Positions 43,097 through 54,592 of a stretch of 64,000 nucleotides of DNA are shown here, piece by piece. The translations under genes were made by a program, and so were the position numbers. Source of the stretch: Prosthecobacter sp. (GTDB lineage: Bacteria > Verrucomicrobiota > Verrucomicrobiia > Verrucomicrobiales > Verrucomicrobiaceae); the NCBI GenBank assembly GCA_021733925.1, contig JAIPJY010000009.1:1-64000 (forward strand), given 5' to 3'. The notes under the pieces were generated by a model. That model saw nothing but the letters and a program-made list of their open reading frames with translations, had not been told where the DNA came from and did no database searches. How positions within the stretch are numbered: position 1 is the stretch's first letter; every line of letters starts with the position of its first letter.

Positions 43097-44533
43097 TCAG
43101 CCAACGCTGATCGGCCCCTCATGCACTCCTGCCTTCAATTTCACCGGTGCTTGCGTGTGATTGTGAATCACCGCATCTCCTTTGAAAACAACACCGGCAC
43201 TGCATTCCACCGGACCATGCACCAGCAGGCTGCGGCAGTGCAGCAGGCTGGGCGTATGTGGAAAATTCTGCTCCAGACCGTCCACCAGCTTGCACAGCTT
43301 TTGATCCAGATGCAGGTGCGGCGGCTGGCCATTGCGGCTGGGATGCAGCCTCAGGCAGAAGTCCTCCGTGAGTTCATACGCGTCTGAGCGCACCGCCAGC
43401 AGATCGCTCGTGGTCTTCACCGGCGCAAACCGTACACGCGAGACCTCAATGGCACCCGCTCCGGCAAAGCACTCAATGGCCGCCCCCATCGCCGTCTCCA
43501 ATTGCACCACCGCTGGCGAAGTGGCATCGCGCGGATCCACCGTCTTCTTGTTCATGATCGGCGGCAGCGGAATCAGCCCGTCATTCTCTTCGAGCGCAGC
43601 TTTCAGCGCCTGCAGATCAATCCACAGGTTGTTCGTGTTGAAGTAGCGATGCTCGTCGATGTTTTGAAACAGATGCTCGTCGGATTTCGGACATTGGGCA
43701 GACTCACGCAGCAGGTAGCGCCCGTCGCTCAGCCTCACCGCCAGATGCCCGCCCTTCTTGTCCGATTCCGTACGGCGTGTGACCTCCATCACAAACGGCA
43801 TGCCGCTGTCCGCAAACCACGCGAGGATCGCCGGATCGAGCGTGGCACCGAGGTTGTCCGAATTCGACACGAAAGCATATCTCACCCCGCTGCCGAGCAG
43901 TCGCTCAAGCCAGCCCGAACCCGCGAGGCACGCATAGATGTCGCCATGGCCCGGCGGGCACCATTCCTGATCAGGACTCGCAGGCGCAGTCGCAGGCTCC
44001 AGCGAGCTGGCCAGCACCTTCGGCACCTTGTTCTGCATCAGCTCCCACGTCTCACGTCCGCCCAGTTGCGGAAAACGTTTCGCAAGATGCTCCGCCGAAT
44101 CTGCCGAAGTACTAAAACTGTTCATCAGCATGAACATTGGCACCTCACCACCCGTCTGCGAGCGCAGCAGCAGAATCTGCTGCGCAATCAAATCGAGAAA
44201 CGTGTCCTCACCGCGCACCGGCAGCAGCGACTTCGCCTTCTCCAATCCCATGCCCGTGCCGAGCCCCCCGTTGAGCTTGATGACCACCGTCTGCTTCAGC
44301 AATTCCGCTGCACGCTCCGTCGCCGGAGCCGTGAGCGCATCCGCACAGGGAAGCTCCTGCGCCGGTGCAATGGTGGTTTCAGGAATCATCCCCGTCTCAC
44401 CCGCAAGCAGCGCCGCATAGCTGCCGCGAAACGCACGAATGGCGGACTCACTCAGGCCTTCAGCCTGCATTTTCTGACGAAAAGGGGCGAAGGACGTTTC
44501 AATGCTCTCGGAAGTAAGGGAGGAATGACTCAT
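43097..44533 (-). CDS. UTP-glucose-1-phosphate uridylyltransferase, eukaryote-type (UGP2-like), 478 aa
   Basis: It makes UDP-glucose from UTP and glucose 1-phosphate. The uridine-binding loop VVIKLNGGLGTGMGLEKAKS (residues 82-101) and VPMFMLMNSFSTSADS, QEWCPPGHGDIYACL, YAFVSNSDNLGATLD and FNTNNLWIDL belong to the UDPGP family found in eukaryotes and some bacteria, not the GalU family. A C-terminal left-handed beta-helix-like segment (VVFKGDAVIHNHTQAPVKLK) completes the fold. Length matches. UDP-glucose could feed the exopolysaccharide block at 47-51 kb or trehalose/glycogen synthesis. Activity on UDP-GlcNAc is less likely but not excluded. Confidence 0.92.
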   Translation of the reverse strand: MSHSSLTSESIETSFAPFRQKMQAEGLSESAIRAFRGSYAALLAGETGMIPETTIAPAQELPCADALTAPATERAAELLKQTVVIKLNGGLGTGMGLEKAKSLLPVRGEDTFLDLIAQQILLLRSQTGGEVPMFMLMNSFSTSADSAEHLAKRFPQLGGRETWELMQNKVPKVLASSLEPATAPASPDQEWCPPGHGDIYACLAGSGWLERLLGSGVRYAFVSNSDNLGATLDPAILAWFADSGMPFVMEVTRRTESDKKGGHLAVRLSDGRYLLRESAQCPKSDEHLFQNIDEHRYFNTNNLWIDLQALKAALEENDGLIPLPPIMNKKTVDPRDATSPAVVQLETAMGAAIECFAGAGAIEVSRVRFAPVKTTSDLLAVRSDAYELTEDFCLRLHPSRNGQPPHLHLDQKLCKLVDGLEQNFPHTPSLLHCRSLLVHGPVECSAGVVFKGDAVIHNHTQAPVKLKAGVHEGPISVG

Positions 44534-47329: not shown

Positions 47330-47890
47330 TCAATCCGGCACGATGATCTGATCTTCAGGCTGGAGCTTGATGTCGCGGGAAGGGTCGGCGCTGATGTCCT
47401 TGAGATTGATCTCCGTGGTCACCCCATTGCGGATCAGCTTGGTCTTGCTGGGCTTGGCAAAAGGCGAAAAGCCTCCGGCTGCGGAGATCGCTTTCAGCAC
47501 GGTCATGCTGGAGCTGTACGGCACCGTTCCATTGCCCTTGATGCCTCCCACGACATAGATCATTCGAGCGGTGCTGGCACTGTCATCCGTGGTCACGGTC
47601 ACAGTCGGACGGGTGTAAATTTCACGGTCCTTGTAAGTCTGCTCAATGGCGCGCTGCAGGCTGGAGGGCTTGAGCCCGGCGGCGCGCACTTCCCCAATGT
47701 GAAGCAGGTTGACGGTGCCGTTGTCGCTGATCGTGTACACCTTGCTGATCTGCGGCACTTCATTATCAGGGATGCCCCCGATGGAGATCGTAACGCGATT
47801 AGTAGGCTTGAGGGCGATTTCGCCGTTCTGCGCATGCGCTGATGCCAGGGCGCAAACAGCGAGGATGCAGGAGAGAATGCGTGTGTTCAT
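47330..47890 (-). CDS. Polysaccharide biosynthesis/export protein (Wza-like, SLBB), 186 aa
   Basis: A Sec signal peptide (1-20, SAHA-Q) precedes a poly-export domain (VTISIGGIPDNEVPQISKVY, VNLLHIGEVRAAGLKPSSLQ, IYTRPTVTVTT) and one SLBB domain (IYVVGGIKGNGTVPYSSSMT through LQPEDQIIVPD). The family forms the periplasmic/outer-membrane channel for capsule or exopolysaccharide export. It has only one SLBB and no lipoprotein cysteine, so it is shorter than Wza and probably relies on the barrel protein at 50228-51430 for the outer-membrane pore. It is last in the export unit, 21 bases after the kinase gene. Confidence 0.85.
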   Translation of the reverse strand: MNTRILSCILAVCALASAHAQNGEIALKPTNRVTISIGGIPDNEVPQISKVYTISDNGTVNLLHIGEVRAAGLKPSSLQRAIEQTYKDREIYTRPTVTVTTDDSASTARMIYVVGGIKGNGTVPYSSSMTVLKAISAAGGFSPFAKPSKTKLIRNGVTTEINLKDISADPSRDIKLQPEDQIIVPD

Positions 47891-47911: not shown

Positions 47912-49042
47912 TTAAAAGACATCGTCACCATCCAAACGCGAGACTGACTGGGAACTTCCCAATGCAGTGGCGGTGGTTTCAGCTTTGATTTTACGTCGGC
48001 GGGATTTTCCTCCCGAACCGCCATTGGGCGAATTCGTCGGCGAGTAATAAGTGTAGTAGCTCGTGTAGTACTGATACTGCGCATCACTGCGCAGATCGAC
48101 GTTGTTGAGGACCACCCCCACCACTTTGCCACCGACGTTTTCAACGCTCTGCTTCACACGCATGAGCATGTGGCGTGGCAGTTTGCGGTGCTGCACCACG
48201 ATCATCGTCATGTCGGCCAGATTGGCGAGCACTGAGGCGTCGCTAACCCCAAGGATGGGTGGCGAGTCGATCAGGACGAGATCAAAGCGGCTTTTGACTT
48301 CGGTGATCAGATCCACCATGCGCTGGGAGTTGAGCAATCCCGCGCTGTCCGCTGGCAGCAGTCCGCTGGGAAGGAAAAAGAGATTCTCCACCGGCGTGCG
48401 CAGCACCACATCTTCCAGCCGGATGTCGGTCGTAAGGTAATTGGTGAGGCCCGTGGCGTGGCTGACATCGAAATGCGTGTGCAGGCTCGGACGGCGCAAA
48501 TCAGCATCAATCAGCAGCACGTTGTATCCGCCCTGGGCGCAGACATAAGCGAGGTTCACCATCGTGGTGGATTTCCCCTCCCCTGCCCCGCCGCTGACGA
48601 TACTGAGGCAGTTGGCGTCCGGCGTTTTTCGGTTGAATTCAATGTTCGTGCGCAGAATGCGGTAGGCTTCGGCGTCGGGATTGAACCCGCTGGAACGGTG
48701 CAGCACCCCGACGTCCTTCGGCACCACCGCCAAAACGGGCACGCCCAGATAGCGCTCCACGTCATCGAGGTTCTTCACCGTCGTATCCATGTACTCGAGG
48801 AAGAAAGCGAGCCCAAGACCAAACATCAGACCCAGCACACCGCCCAGGGCGAGATGCAGAGGCACATTGGGCTTGGCAGGCTTTCCTTCCGGCTCTGCTT
48901 CAGAATAAATGGTGGCGGGCGATTTCACCAGCTCGATGCCCGCCTTTTCCTCAAAGTAGCGCGAGCGCATTTTGACCAGCAAATCTTCCAGGTAGGTGAC
49001 TTCGTCCTTGGCAGTCTTGTACTCCGTGTAAAGAGACGACAT
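47912..49042 (-). CDS. Bacterial tyrosine kinase (CpsD/Wzc kinase half) with second Wzz transmembrane segment, 376 aa
   Basis: Residues 1-35 continue the coiled coil of the upstream chain-length protein in the same frame, after a TAG at 49067-49069. A transmembrane helix follows (about 61-83, LHLALGGVLGLMFGLGLAFF), then the BY-kinase domain with Walker A GGAGEGKSTT (Lys157), Walker A' LLIDADLRRP and Walker B LVLIDSPP. A tyrosine cluster, YQYYTSYYTYYSP, sits near 330-342 as the autophosphorylation tail. The proposed ATG at 49042 may be an internal start only; the natural protein would be a single chain of roughly 730 residues beginning at 50110. It controls polymer length and export. Confidence 0.85.
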   Translation of the reverse strand: MSSLYTEYKTAKDEVTYLEDLLVKMRSRYFEEKAGIELVKSPATIYSEAEPEGKPAKPNVPLHLALGGVLGLMFGLGLAFFLEYMDTTVKNLDDVERYLGVPVLAVVPKDVGVLHRSSGFNPDAEAYRILRTNIEFNRKTPDANCLSIVSGGAGEGKSTTMVNLAYVCAQGGYNVLLIDADLRRPSLHTHFDVSHATGLTNYLTTDIRLEDVVLRTPVENLFFLPSGLLPADSAGLLNSQRMVDLITEVKSRFDLVLIDSPPILGVSDASVLANLADMTMIVVQHRKLPRHMLMRVKQSVENVGGKVVGVVLNNVDLRSDAQYQYYTSYYTYYSPTNSPNGGSGGKSRRRKIKAETTATALGSSQSVSRLDGDDVF

Positions 49043-49066
49043 GTTTTGCAGTTCCTGCTTGGCGTC

Positions 49067-50110
49067 CTAATTGTATTCCTTGAGGGCTTCGCGCTTCTTC
49101 CTCGACGCATCCTGCCGGTTTTGCAGGCCCTTCACATGCGACTGGGCAGCACCCACGATGAGAGATTGGTACTCCGCCAGCTGACTGTCCACACTCAACA
49201 CCTGCGGATGCAGGCGTCCCCGCCCTTCATTGACCAATCCTTCACGCGCGACCTTGAGGTCCTGCAGCTTCATGGTGATGGCTGTGATGTTTTGATTTTC
49301 CAGTTGAAGTCCGGAGGCCTGATCAATGAGTTCGTCAGGAGTCAGCTTGCTCACCTGGTCGATCTGCGACTGCAAAGCCAGGACTTCCTGATCGGCGATC
49401 ATGAGCGCCTGCTCGCGTGAGATGACCATGGAGTCTTTCTCACTGCGCATCTCACCGCCAGGATTCAGCGAGCTGCCGCCGCCAACGATCCAGTCACCAA
49501 CAATGCCAGCCTTGCGTCTGGCTTCCTGAGACCGCACCTGCGCCTGCCCCCGAAGCGACTCCTGATCGGAAATTTGCTGCTGCAGCACGTCCAGGGCCTT
49601 CTGCTTCTTGCCGCTCTCGATGCTGTTGCGCTGGTCCATGTAGCTCTTGGCCACTTCATTGGCGATGATGGCCGCGAGCTGCGCATCCTGATCGTAGTAA
49701 TCAATGATGACAAAGTCTGAGCGCAGCATCGACTGCGTTTCGAGGTTGGAGCGCAATTTCGCCAGTGCGGCCTGCCGGTTCGGCAGTTCCCATTTTTTGG
49801 CAAGCTCGAGTTTTTCGATGACCGGATAAAGCGTGGTGGGCTTGGTGATCGTCTCGAACTGGGTTTTGATGTATTCCTGCGTGAAGGCAAGACCGTCGCT
49901 GCGATTGCGATCAAACACATTGATGTCCTGCGTGATGCGCTCAATGGTCATTTCGACATGACCGCGATACTTGCGCGGCATGATGTAAGTGAGCACCGCC
50001 GCCGCTGCGAAGATCAGGATGAACGAGAGCGAGATGAGTCCAAAGCGATTCTTGACCACCTGCCAGGTGTCCATCGCATGCTTCTGCAGTTCGGTGCCGG
50101 ACTCGTTCAT
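49067..50110 (-). CDS. Wzz/GumC-type chain-length determinant, first half, ending at an in-frame TAG, 347 aa
   Basis: The first cytoplasmic/membrane helix is at about 24-44 (FGLISLSFILIFAAAAVLTY), followed by the periplasmic Wzz domain (YRGHVEMTIERI) and long coiled coils through residue 347. Wzz proteins need a second membrane helix near the C-terminus. Here it is missing, because the frame stops at TAG in the middle of the coiled coil (REALKEYN-stop-DAKQELQN); the reading frame then continues directly into the kinase half. Both parts together match the usual Wzz-kinase fusion. The stop may be a mutation, a sequencing error or a real regulatory feature. Confidence 0.8.
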   Translation of the reverse strand: MNESGTELQKHAMDTWQVVKNRFGLISLSFILIFAAAAVLTYIMPRKYRGHVEMTIERITQDINVFDRNRSDGLAFTQEYIKTQFETITKPTTLYPVIEKLELAKKWELPNRQAALAKLRSNLETQSMLRSDFVIIDYYDQDAQLAAIIANEVAKSYMDQRNSIESGKKQKALDVLQQQISDQESLRGQAQVRSQEARRKAGIVGDWIVGGGSSLNPGGEMRSEKDSMVISREQALMIADQEVLALQSQIDQVSKLTPDELIDQASGLQLENQNITAITMKLQDLKVAREGLVNEGRGRLHPQVLSVDSQLAEYQSLIVGAAQSHVKGLQNRQDASRKKREALKEYN

Positions 50111-50227: not shown

Positions 50228-51430
50228 CTAAAAGGTGGCCGTGGCTCCGAGGGAGACTTGGTTGCGTTTGAATTCCACCAGATCGTTGTTGGACAGCTGC
50301 GTGGAGAATGAGTAGTTGGCATTCAGATTGACGTTGTCCATCAGCTGATAACCAATGCCTGCATTAAGGAAAACCGAGTCCTGCGTCTGATCTGGAGTGG
50401 TGCCCCCTGAGAGCTCAGAGTGCGCATAGCTCGCTCCGCCGTTGACGCTGAAACGCTTGGTGACCTGATGATTCAGCTGCACACCGGTGTTCACCCCATA
50501 GCTGCTTCTGTAGCTGCCGAGCAGCGCACCATTGAAACCCAGCATCGAAAACCAGCGCAACTGCGTCTGTTTTGCCACCGCATAGTTGAGCGCGGCTTCA
50601 GCATAGGGTTTCGTTTGGCTCCCATTGGCGTTTTGGTAAAGTTCCGCACCAGCTCGCACTGAAGTGGACATGTTCTCGCTCCACGCATGGTCGACTCCAG
50701 CCAGGGCGAAATGTGAATGGTAGTTTTGGAACCCGCTCTGGGTGTAGTCCATCAGGCGGTAGCGATACTCTGCCGTCAGACTGGTCCGTTGCCCAACTTT
50801 ATACGCAAATTGCTGGGCCAGCAGATGCGAATAGCGGTCCTGTGATGTGGCTACCGCTGAGTTCTCGTAGGCGATGCCGTCGAACGTGTAGGAGGTGGTG
50901 GTTGAGAACCGTGGCGTCCATGCGTAGCTGACATTAAAATTGTTGTAGCCGTATAGAAATTGGCCGTTCCACAGTGCGCTGGTGGCACCGTAACCAAATG
51001 CACTGTTGGGATTGGTACCGTAGGTGAGGTAGAAATTGTTGCTCACCTTCAGACGTTCCGAAAACTGGTGCTCGAAATTGAAGGTCGCCCGGCCATTGTA
51101 AAAAGTGCTGCCGTAAACCGGCACTCCGTTCACGTATTCAAGGACGCTGGCCTCAAGACTGAAGCTGTAGGGCGTGGTCTGGTCCGCATGGGTGTAGGAC
51201 GTCCCAGCACCAACCTGCATGTACCACGAATCAATGTTGCTCAGCGAGGCCGAAGGCACCTTGTACTTGAGCACGTCATAGCCGGTGTTGCCGGTGATTG
51301 AAAACGTCAGCGGCTCCTCGGTGCTGAAATCGGCCGAATAATTTTGGATCCCGACCAGCCCCTGCGCACGCAATGCCGCAGGGCTGAGTACAGCGACTGC
51401 CAGGATAAGCATTGCCAGTTTAATACGCAT
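50228..51430 (-). CDS. Outer-membrane beta-barrel protein of the exopolysaccharide locus, 400 aa
   Basis: A signal peptide (1-22, ALRA-Q) is followed by a chain of alternating beta strands rich in Tyr, Asn, Ser and Gly (TSYTFDGIAYENSAVAT, RTSLTAEYRYRLMDYTQSGF, KRFSVNGGASYAHSEL) and a C-terminal strand ending QVSLGATATF. These features mark an outer-membrane barrel. Similar barrels (outer_membrane beta-barrel family, BBP2/GfcD-like) occur in Gram-negative EPS export systems with short Wza-like proteins. It is first in the unit with the Wzz, kinase and SLBB genes, which supports a role as the outer-membrane exit pore. The exact family is not certain. Confidence 0.8.
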   Translation of the reverse strand: MRIKLAMLILAVAVLSPAALRAQGLVGIQNYSADFSTEEPLTFSITGNTGYDVLKYKVPSASLSNIDSWYMQVGAGTSYTHADQTTPYSFSLEASVLEYVNGVPVYGSTFYNGRATFNFEHQFSERLKVSNNFYLTYGTNPNSAFGYGATSALWNGQFLYGYNNFNVSYAWTPRFSTTTSYTFDGIAYENSAVATSQDRYSHLLAQQFAYKVGQRTSLTAEYRYRLMDYTQSGFQNYHSHFALAGVDHAWSENMSTSVRAGAELYQNANGSQTKPYAEAALNYAVAKQTQLRWFSMLGFNGALLGSYRSSYGVNTGVQLNHQVTKRFSVNGGASYAHSELSGGTTPDQTQDSVFLNAGIGYQLMDNVNLNANYSFSTQLSNNDLVEFKRNQVSLGATATF

Positions 51431-52065: not shown

Positions 52066-52102
52066 GACAGTTGTTGATTTGGAGTGGTTCCCCATTTTTC
52101 AG

Positions 52103-52173
52103 AGCGGGTAGTGGGAATCGAACCCACATGGCCAGCGTGGAAGGCTGGAACTTTACCACTAAGCTATACCCGC
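52103..52173 (-). tRNA. tRNA-Gly (anticodon TCC)
   Basis: On the minus strand the sequence folds into a 7-bp acceptor (GCGGGTA / TACCCGC), a D-arm with GGTAAAG, an anticodon stem CCAGC / GCTGG around CTTCCAC (anticodon TCC) and a T-arm GTGGG-TTCGATT-CCCAC. The discriminator base is T and CCA is not encoded. It reads glycine codons GGA and GGG. Confidence 0.96.
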
Positions 52174-52568
52174 AATAACAACTGAATTTTTGCACCCAAT
52201 TGGCAACTTGCAACCAATAATTTTAGAAATTATGGAATTAATGAAATTAAGGACCTTTCGATAACCAAAAGATGCATAAAGACATTACCACTGAACTAAA
52301 AAACGGCAATCGTATAATCAGTCAGCGTCGAACTTTCCTTTGGGACGAATGGTCCCACCGAGCACACTAGGTGGTACGAGCCGTCCATAAAATATCGTCT
52401 GCGCTTTATCTACGCTGCCACACGGAGGGTGCTGTTCTTGTAACTAAATCATGCTTTTTTCAGTTTTCCGTGGCTTCTCACATTTCAATTTTGTACAATT
52501 AGAGACGCTTTTTTCCAATTACCCCTCCCATTTAATTTCGTCAGTCCGTTGTATAAAAAATTTCACTC
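52174..52568. other. AT-rich non-coding interval upstream of the Trp-repeat gene
   Basis: No gene is visible. The stretch is markedly AT-richer than the rest of the window. At 52285-52299 the reverse strand reads TTAGTTCAGTGGTAA, which looks like the D-arm of a tRNA, but the surrounding bases do not fold into a tRNA. The rest shows no clear promoter or terminator. Confidence 0.4.
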
Positions 52569-53891
52569 ATGAAAACATTACAAACACACCTGGCTGCTTG
52601 TGCTGCGTTGTTCTTTTCCGCATTTTCCGAGTGTCCCGCACAAATTCCAACATCGGATACTGGTGAAATAAGTCATAAAATTGACTATGAACCCGAACTC
52701 AAGATTATCCTTGAAAATCCGAATTTCGAAATCCGTCGCAAGCTGCTGGTGGAATTCGCTGAAAGAATAGGAACTACCGATCCACAAAATGCATGGTTGA
52801 TGCGCAATAAAATAATGAACCAGCCAGACTTGTTATCTTTTGCGTCTTCTTTGATGAAGATTTGGGGGAGGGATCAGCCATTAAAAGCAGTAGAACTCAC
52901 ACTCACTAATCCTGATGGTGAATTCCGCATGTTTATTACGAACGCAGCTCTCGCTGGGTGGGCGTCCAAAGACCATTTCAAAGCAATGGAATGGGCATCC
53001 AAAAATCTCTCACCCTTTTATCGCAGGACCGCTTTAGCTACTATTGGTCAAATCTGGGCTCTTAAAAATCCTGTTGAGGCCATTGAATGGGGCTCAAACC
53101 TGAGAATTGAGGTGGAGCGTGTGTTTTATATCGCCGAAATTCTAACTACATGGACAAACACCAACCCTTATGAGGCAGTTCAATGGGCGTCCAAACTGCC
53201 TCTTGGAAAATTCCACGATCTGATGGTTTCCCAAGTTATTTTCACATGGGTTAATTATTATCCAATAATGGCGGTCGAATGGCTGCTGTCAACCCCCGAA
53301 CACCAATGGCTATTGCCAGCTACCTTGGCAAAGTGGACTAAGTTTGACCACCTTGCTGCCATAAATTCTTTGACAAATATACAGGACCAAAAACTCAAAC
53401 TTTCTTGTCAAATCGCTATCATTGATGAGTGGGCTTATTTCAATCCAGAAGCAGCATGCAAATGGGCAAGCACCCAATTAAAAGACGAGCAAATTACAAA
53501 TGCCATCAAAACAACCATTGGGAACTGGGCCGCCGATTACCCATTGGAGGTTTTGAAATGGGCTCAGGATATAAAACTGGAAACCAACAGCAGCGCGCCC
53601 ATGGAAGCAGCCCTGGAATCTTGGGCTCGTGCTGACTTCAAGGCCTGCCTCACTTGGGTAAACCAGCAAAAAAAAGGCCATGAGAGGGACATTGGGCTCA
53701 GCAAAGTTTCAGATGTCTTGATGGAAACCGAACCCAGGACCGCCGCCGATATTGCACTTTCTATCAGTGATTTAGCACTTCAAAAAAAGAGTCTGCTGAA
53801 CGTTCTAGAGACGTGGAAACTAAACAGCCCGGAAAATTCGGAGAATTGGATTAAAAATCATCCCCACATTCTAAAACTATTGAATCAATAG
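52569..53891 (+). CDS. Exported protein made of about ten Trp-rich helical repeats, unknown function, 440 aa
   Basis: A signal peptide (1-24, ending in CPAQ) is followed by about ten repeats of about 32 residues. The consensus is W-x3-[NDY]-P-x2-A-x2-W-[AG]-S followed by a helix and another W (DHFKAMEWASKNL, NPVEAIEWGSNL, NPYEAVQWASKL, NPEAACKWASTQ, YPLEVLKWAQD). This predicts a helical solenoid similar in logic to TPR or HEAT proteins. Repeats of this style are widespread in Verrucomicrobia proteins of unknown function. The gene is AT-richer than its neighbours, suggesting a separate origin. It converges with the metallopeptidase-like gene at 54015. Likely role: protein or ligand binding in the periplasm or on the surface. 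Confidence 0.7.
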   Translation: MKTLQTHLAACAALFFSAFSECPAQIPTSDTGEISHKIDYEPELKIILENPNFEIRRKLLVEFAERIGTTDPQNAWLMRNKIMNQPDLLSFASSLMKIWGRDQPLKAVELTLTNPDGEFRMFITNAALAGWASKDHFKAMEWASKNLSPFYRRTALATIGQIWALKNPVEAIEWGSNLRIEVERVFYIAEILTTWTNTNPYEAVQWASKLPLGKFHDLMVSQVIFTWVNYYPIMAVEWLLSTPEHQWLLPATLAKWTKFDHLAAINSLTNIQDQKLKLSCQIAIIDEWAYFNPEAACKWASTQLKDEQITNAIKTTIGNWAADYPLEVLKWAQDIKLETNSSAPMEAALESWARADFKACLTWVNQQKKGHERDIGLSKVSDVLMETEPRTAADIALSISDLALQKKSLLNVLETWKLNSPENSENWIKNHPHILKLLNQ

Positions 53892-54014
53892 CCAAGGTAC
53901 CAACACCTATTCCCTGTCCCGGAATTTAGGCCAGTATCTGGAGGCGTCCGGCAACAGTTGACTAATTGGTTTGGAATCATATCTGCCTCGACAGCTTCTC
54001 GGCTGAGCACCGAG

Positions 54015-54536
54015 CTATGGGTGTGAGTGACGCTGCAGAAGATTTTTGTAGATTCGATCCAAATCAGCCAGTCTACCCCTGAGAATAAAAAATGTTCTTC
54101 GCTGTGCTTCCAGAACACTATCACCTCCGAGATCCATGTGAGTTATCTGATCAGACTGGCTTATTACGCTGCGATCTCCAACGACATCAATAAAGCTGGG
54201 CAGATATATTCGGTTCGAACTATCAAGGAAATGCTCGGCAAAGCTGCCTCCAAGTTTAATTAACGCCATCCGCTTCCCTACGTAGCCACGTCCTAAATTC
54301 GTTTGCCCTTTCCAAAATGTTCCCACCCCGGATTTGTATAGCTGAAATACTCTGGCGCTAACGGATGAAAGCCCGCAAGCTTTTGCAACTGTAAAATGTC
54401 CAGCTTCATGAATTGAAGCAAATGCGAGCGTTCCAATAGGAGCCTCCAACAAATTTATTTCGGAAGCTGCTAGATTTTCGCGCCCCGATATTACAAAAGC
54501 CACGAGGTAAATTCTGCAATACTTGAAGATTAGCAT
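54015..54536 (-). CDS. Small M41/FtsH-peptidase-like protein with HEAGH motif, 173 aa
   Basis: The zinc motif HEAGH (residues 43-47) sits in LAFASIHEAGHFTVAKACGL, close to the peptidase-domain helix of FtsH (YHEAGHAL). GGSFAEHF and SQSDQITHMDLGGD later in the chain could correspond to the FtsH AE..F helix and the third metal-ligand aspartate. There is no AAA+ domain and no clear signal peptide; residues 1-20 are moderately hydrophobic. It would be a stand-alone peptidase or an inactive relative. The DNA is AT-rich compared with the neighbourhood. No partner gene is evident apart from the convergent Trp-repeat gene. The assignment is by motif only. Confidence 0.55.
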   Translation of the reverse strand: MLIFKYCRIYLVAFVISGRENLAASEINLLEAPIGTLAFASIHEAGHFTVAKACGLSSVSARVFQLYKSGVGTFWKGQTNLGRGYVGKRMALIKLGGSFAEHFLDSSNRIYLPSFIDVVGDRSVISQSDQITHMDLGGDSVLEAQRRTFFILRGRLADLDRIYKNLLQRHSHP

Positions 54537-54592
54537 AAGGACATTTTAGAGCATTGTACTTAAAAATGCTATTGGCAAATTGTTAGCCCATA

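Follow-up and report, generated by a model that had tools for sequence, protein, structure and literature searches.

A private in-frame TAG in a Wzc-type polysaccharide co-polymerase gene of a Prosthecobacter genome

Why does a gene for a Wzc-type polysaccharide co-polymerase and tyrosine kinase carry a stop codon near the middle of its reading frame? The gene lies in a 64,000-nucleotide stretch of a Prosthecobacter sp. contig, which was analysed as a whole and is referred to here as the window. An earlier note on this DNA had offered four readings of the stop: a nonsense mutation, a sequencing error, reinitiation of translation at a nearby ATG, and amber readthrough. Because the stop appears private to this genome, the first two stand as the likely options, while the last two are left unsupported. 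We think it reasonably probable that the stop is a recent private nonsense mutation, which would have disabled one export apparatus.

The interrupted gene and its two halves

Read on the minus strand from 50110 to 47912, the frame has a single in-frame TAG at codon 348 (49067-49069) and is otherwise open (Table 1). Rereading of the sequence confirmed the site as originally described: there is no frameshift at the TAG, and the frame continues as DAKQELQNM, in which DAKQELQN is followed by the ATG at 49042, and runs on to the terminal stop at 47912.

Table 1. Positions of the interrupted gene, its parts, and the flanking export genes in the window
Feature	Position	Strand	Details
Wzc-type polysaccharide co-polymerase/BY-kinase (PCP-2a) gene with one in-frame TAG	47912..50110	-	732 codons (TAG included) and terminal stop
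In-frame TAG	49067..49069	-	codon 348; this genome only
N-terminal fragment	49070..50110	-	347 aa; contains membrane helix 1 plus the larger part of the periplasmic domain
C-terminal open frame from the first ATG past the TAG	47912..49042	-	376 aa; contains membrane helix 2 and the BY-kinase
Membrane helix 1	49973..50059	-	residues 18-46; hydropathy
Long helix carrying the stop	48926..49207	-	residues 302-395; AlphaFold2 model of an intact orthologue
Membrane helix 2	48791..48865	-	residues 416-440; hydropathy
BY-kinase domain	48056..48670	-	TIGR01007 stretch
Walker A	48569-48592	-
Tyrosine cluster	48044-48076	-	extends slightly beyond the TIGR01007 stretch
Downstream OPX-type export protein	47330..47890	-	186 aa; Poly_export and SLBB
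Upstream outer-membrane beta-barrel	50228..51430	-	400 aa; BBP2_2; C-terminal Phe followed by TAG as the gene's own stop

The stop separates two membrane helices predicted from hydropathy (approximately residues 18-46 and 416-440). One hydrophobic stretch lies in the first half (19-residue windows starting at residues 18-28) and the other in the second half (windows starting at 416-422). Matches of the first half to NCBIfam are to chain-length determinants (best 2.9e-8, all under the curated cut-offs), and no match was found for it in Pfam. The second half is a BY-kinase (NCBIfam TIGR01007, 1.4e-51, above the cut-off) with Walker A, A', and B motifs at residues 507-514, 532-539, and 612-618, respectively, and with seven tyrosines within residues 679-689. 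Hydropathy, NCBIfam matches, and motifs agree in leaving each half without the parts of the other, as the earlier note had claimed. Its placement of the stop inside a helix is borne out by an AlphaFold2 model of an intact orthologue. The model is poor overall (mean pLDDT 57.9, pTM 0.31) and too poor for a fold search, and only its helices were used. Nevertheless, the helix at residues 302-395 is locally confident (ten-residue blocks of 74-87 over residues 301-390), with codon 348 in mid-helix; further helices are modeled at residues 23-47 and 416-443, with low confidence overall.

The gene is an ordinary PCP-2a gene, in which a Wzz-like co-polymerase is fused to a tyrosine autokinase. Two membrane helices enclose the periplasmic domain in both the hydropathy profile and the orthologue model, and the BY-kinase has all three Walker motifs and the tyrosine cluster. 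The order of parts, the BY-kinase motifs, and the tyrosine tail are the same in PCP-2a proteins such as Wzc (PDB entries 7nhr and 9r62). A profile of the orthologues matches 7nhr over residues 303-689 (8.9e-34), and the N-terminal part lies outside this best PDB stretch. In contrast to PCP-2a Wzc, the gene is here broken by one in-frame TAG, whereas its full-length relatives were found intact.

The stop among relatives and its age

The intact orthologue was searched against 48 genomes of the genus, own genome included. Among the matches listed, there are 39 full-length orthologue places in 38 genomes (identity 63% or more), and only one of the 39, the copy in the window, has an internal stop. 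In each of the 38 others, co-polymerase and kinase are on one chain. Two separate genes with a conserved stop, which had been named as the mark of a real split, occur at none of these 38 places. The continuous frame that the earlier note proposed to look for was found in all 29 relatives that were fetched (30 loci minus the own copy), each with a single open frame of 723-734 aa. On the strength of these listed places and fetched relatives, we reject a natural split conserved in the genus.

The aligned codon 348 is a sense codon in all 29 fetched relatives and encodes 13 Glu, 13 Asp, 1 Gly, 1 Lys, and 1 Gln. Gln (CAG) and Lys (AAG), which the earlier note had placed one base change away from the stop, are thus not what most relatives encode there, the residue being acidic in 26. 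Given this spread of residues, codon 348 appears to lie at a helix position that is acidic in most relatives rather than at a conserved boundary, and the TAG, on the sequences compared, appears to be private to this genome.

Among the matches listed, only fragments of the orthologue are found in two genomes (G016 and G023), and 8 of the 48 genomes, several of them incomplete drafts, have no orthologue and only distant paralogues. Because of these eight, the gene would appear to be dispensable in the genus. We also considered and rejected recurrent breakage of paralogues: four paralogue matches listed were flagged for an internal stop, but in all four the stop is at the C-terminal end, where the match overran the gene. 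A match of 24% identity in G061 was also flagged with an internal stop.

The gene differs from that of the closest relative (G027) at 41 of 2199 bases, which affect 38 codons silently and 3 non-silently, the stop being one of the three. This excess of silent changes suggests that normal constraint acted on the gene until a short time ago. When changes were assigned to lineages by majority rule with five outgroup genomes, 23 fell on the own lineage across the whole gene. Two of them are non-silent, namely, the stop and a change from Val to Ile at residue 504, which is Val in all 20 aligned relatives; two among 23 are too few to demonstrate relaxed constraint. The first 1500 bases contain 10 differences from G027, of which the stop and two silent changes were assigned to the own lineage.

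The third-position divergence of the gene from G027 (0.052) is the lowest among 81 ORFs compared on the contig (median 0.232). In 250-base steps, the window is 98.8-99.6% identical to G027 from 48.5 to 50.0 kb. Identity is lower, at 84-95%, in 34 of 40 aligned blocks listed for the contig. Because of this difference between a tract of about 99% identity and most of the contig, positions 48500-50000 are likely a recent recombination tract between the two lineages. From the lineage assignment, the stop is probably younger than that exchange, up to which constraint would have acted on the gene.

We propose that codon 348 became TAG in this genome alone, through one substitution of recent date. 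Such a single nonsense event needs no special cause, since 238 of the 6579 possible single substitutions in the gene (3.6%) create a stop. Translation would end at the TAG and yield a 347-residue piece held by one membrane helix, and if translation restarted at the ATG 24 bases further along, the product would consist of the kinase and the second helix and would lack the periplasmic domain. Because neither piece should be able to assemble the octameric co-polymerase, the sampled cells have probably lost this route of export. Nonsense pseudogenes are ordinary in bacterial genomes; the gene resembles them in its single private stop and otherwise open frame, and we found no difference. The species is represented by one genome, and the gene shows little further decay, which fits both a base error and a very young mutation.

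Restart, readthrough, and consensus error

Might the two halves instead be made and work together? The stop could end one chain and the ATG 24 bases on could start a second, with the two assembling together. An AGGA ends ten bases ahead of that ATG, and the downstream half lacks nothing from membrane helix 2 onward. However, no other full-length place among the matches listed is split, and the Met encoded at 49042 does not point to an evolved restart because it is also present in unsplit near-clade orthologues. Known two-chain systems are also cut elsewhere. In the PCP-2b pair CapA/CapB of Staphylococcus aureus, the transmembrane and extracytoplasmic parts are on one chain and the kinase is separate, according to PMC12004946. 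If both pieces are made here, the likeness to CapA/CapB would consist in co-polymerase and kinase being on two chains. The CapA/CapB cut, however, falls after the membrane part and leaves the kinase alone separate, whereas the stop at residue 348 precedes the second membrane helix at residue 416, unlike in a bipartite PCP-2b pair. We consider a working split of this kind to be very unlikely. Even less credible is a new type of two-chain co-polymerase, divided within the periplasmic helix, whose two membrane-anchored pieces re-form the coiled coil and function; a split at this position is not among the PCP-2 arrangements in the passages of PMC12004946 considered here.

Amber readthrough or recoding that yields some full-length protein is, in our judgment, the least probable reading of all. 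It would suit a second half that is in frame and little decayed, but the stop is not conserved among the full-length orthologues listed, and TAG ends the neighboring gene at the expected place. The search for a suppressor tRNA that had been suggested as a check came out negative, with a CTA anticodon in none of 48 tRNA hits in the own genome (93% complete; 150 of 173 first-look candidates scored). Anticodons were read with ARAGORN for 46 of the 48 and by eye for the other two (C48:30306-30378 and C48:31372-31442). No readthrough structure was found in the RNA after the stop, whose fold is less stable than the mean of its shuffles (z +1.16), with 178 of 200 shuffles folding at least as well. 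Given no conservation of the stop, no CTA tRNA found, and no notable structure after the stop, an evolved split and readthrough are both unsupported, and we regard both as unlikely. Genome-wide reassignment of TAG is ruled out, as TAG ends ordinary genes: it is the terminal stop of 12 of the 90 compared ORFs of this genome, the TAG in question counted among the 12, and of the upstream barrel gene, and is therefore an ordinary stop here.

The tRNA search also turned up two side observations. A one-strand array of many tRNA-like genes, nine of them called by ARAGORN, occupies G000:C48:30118-33206 (L107:10115-13206). It includes Rfam hits over the cut-off and further degenerate units visible by eye, and the long frame that it encloses resembles a membrane transporter on visual inspection. 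No CTA anticodon was seen in the array, and no tRNA was found on contig C48 outside it. Elsewhere, a tRNA at G000:C11:116602-116674 (L115:202-278) has an eight-base anticodon loop, and ARAGORN gives its type as unknown (ctcg). A 91-base query with this tRNA, run in 47 genomes of the genus, matched in full in the own copy only.

The main rival of the nonsense mutation is a consensus error, in which a base was miscalled or taken from a minority strain in a draft genome that is probably metagenome assembled, with the real gene intact. The genome is a draft of 127 contigs and 7.3 Mb at 93% completeness. The genome collection yielded 16 named loci, every one from a metagenome-assembled genome, and we infer that this genome is one as well. 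Moreover, a single substitution separates the frame from an open one in a gene otherwise near-identical to that of G027 at the protein level. Against an error stands the rarity of such substitutions in the assembly. In a comparison from G027 to the own genome (G000), which included 121 ORFs with a coding signature (87, 11, and 23 on three contig pairs), dropped ORFs aligned over less than half, and covered stops but not frameshifts, this is the lone near-mid-gene stop. Two of the 121 ORFs have stops in G000 at 15-90% of their length, namely, this gene and a 221-aa ORF (residue 46), where the stop is perhaps a start-site difference. Comparison the other way, from G000 to G027, flagged 2 of 122 ORFs (residue 88 of 580 and residues 52-59 of 257). 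We hold a consensus error to be possible, though not what we expect.

A cruder unfiltered scan flagged 12 and 14 ORFs; with a filter for coding signature, the numbers were 11 of 89 and 11 of 90 (any stop, or less than 85% aligned). The stops in the filtered scan, other than the one in this gene, lie near one end of the ORF and were assumed to be start-site differences. A generally poor assembly is unsupported by the filtered scan and the 121-ORF comparison, with frameshifts outside the reach of both. Separately, a 396-aa ORF at C103:165051-166241 matches G027 in two frames, a possible frameshift in either genome.

The export genes and their setting

The gene belongs to an export block in which an outer-membrane barrel, Wzc, and OPX genes follow one another on the same strand. 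The barrel gene ends in a codon for Phe, a C-terminal residue typical of outer-membrane barrels. A G027-like record has the same order and the same frame lengths, as judged on frame lengths alone. In a more distant Prosthecobacter sp. (L044), barrel and Wzc genes are followed by two tandem OPX genes (L044:7193-8395), compared with one in the window. The barrel gene and short OPX gene that flank the Wzc gene recall EpsY/EpsX of Myxococcus xanthus, a composite OPX/beta-barrel translocon according to PMC12004946. This comparison rests on the barrel, Wzc, and OPX genes, with glycosyltransferase, flippase, and polymerase genes outside it, and the OPX protein of the window has a weak match to EpsY, below the cut-off.

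Under the nonsense mutation, how much would be lost? The own genome has at least three other BY-kinase frames above the cut-off (823, 762, and 751 aa on contigs C76, C39, and C74, respectively). Two of the three have a co-polymerase-type N-terminal match, to Wzz above the cut-off on C39 and to a chain-length determinant below the cut-off on C74. Because these frames remain, polysaccharide export as a whole could continue without this gene, and the proposal that the stop switches off exopolysaccharide export can be retained for this apparatus but not as a general statement.

Nothing on this locus appeared among the papers listed by a literature search; a wzc change described in PMC12119577 is a missense change. 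The finding is ordinary and has little importance beyond annotation. An annotation of the gene as interrupted should be confined to this genome, without the species being described as lacking it. If the stop is real, it adds one more polysaccharide-export gene lost to a point mutation. An error, in turn, would illustrate that a stop in a single draft genome needs reads.

Two other features of the window lie near the block. The segment at 52176-54592, adjoining a tRNA-Gly(tcc) gene (52102-52173), has no match longer than 300 bases in G027:C79 and may mark a variable site at a tRNA gene. A UTP-glucose-1-phosphate uridylyltransferase gene (PF01704) lies at 43097-44533, a few kilobases from the export genes, and is a possible source of sugar precursor.
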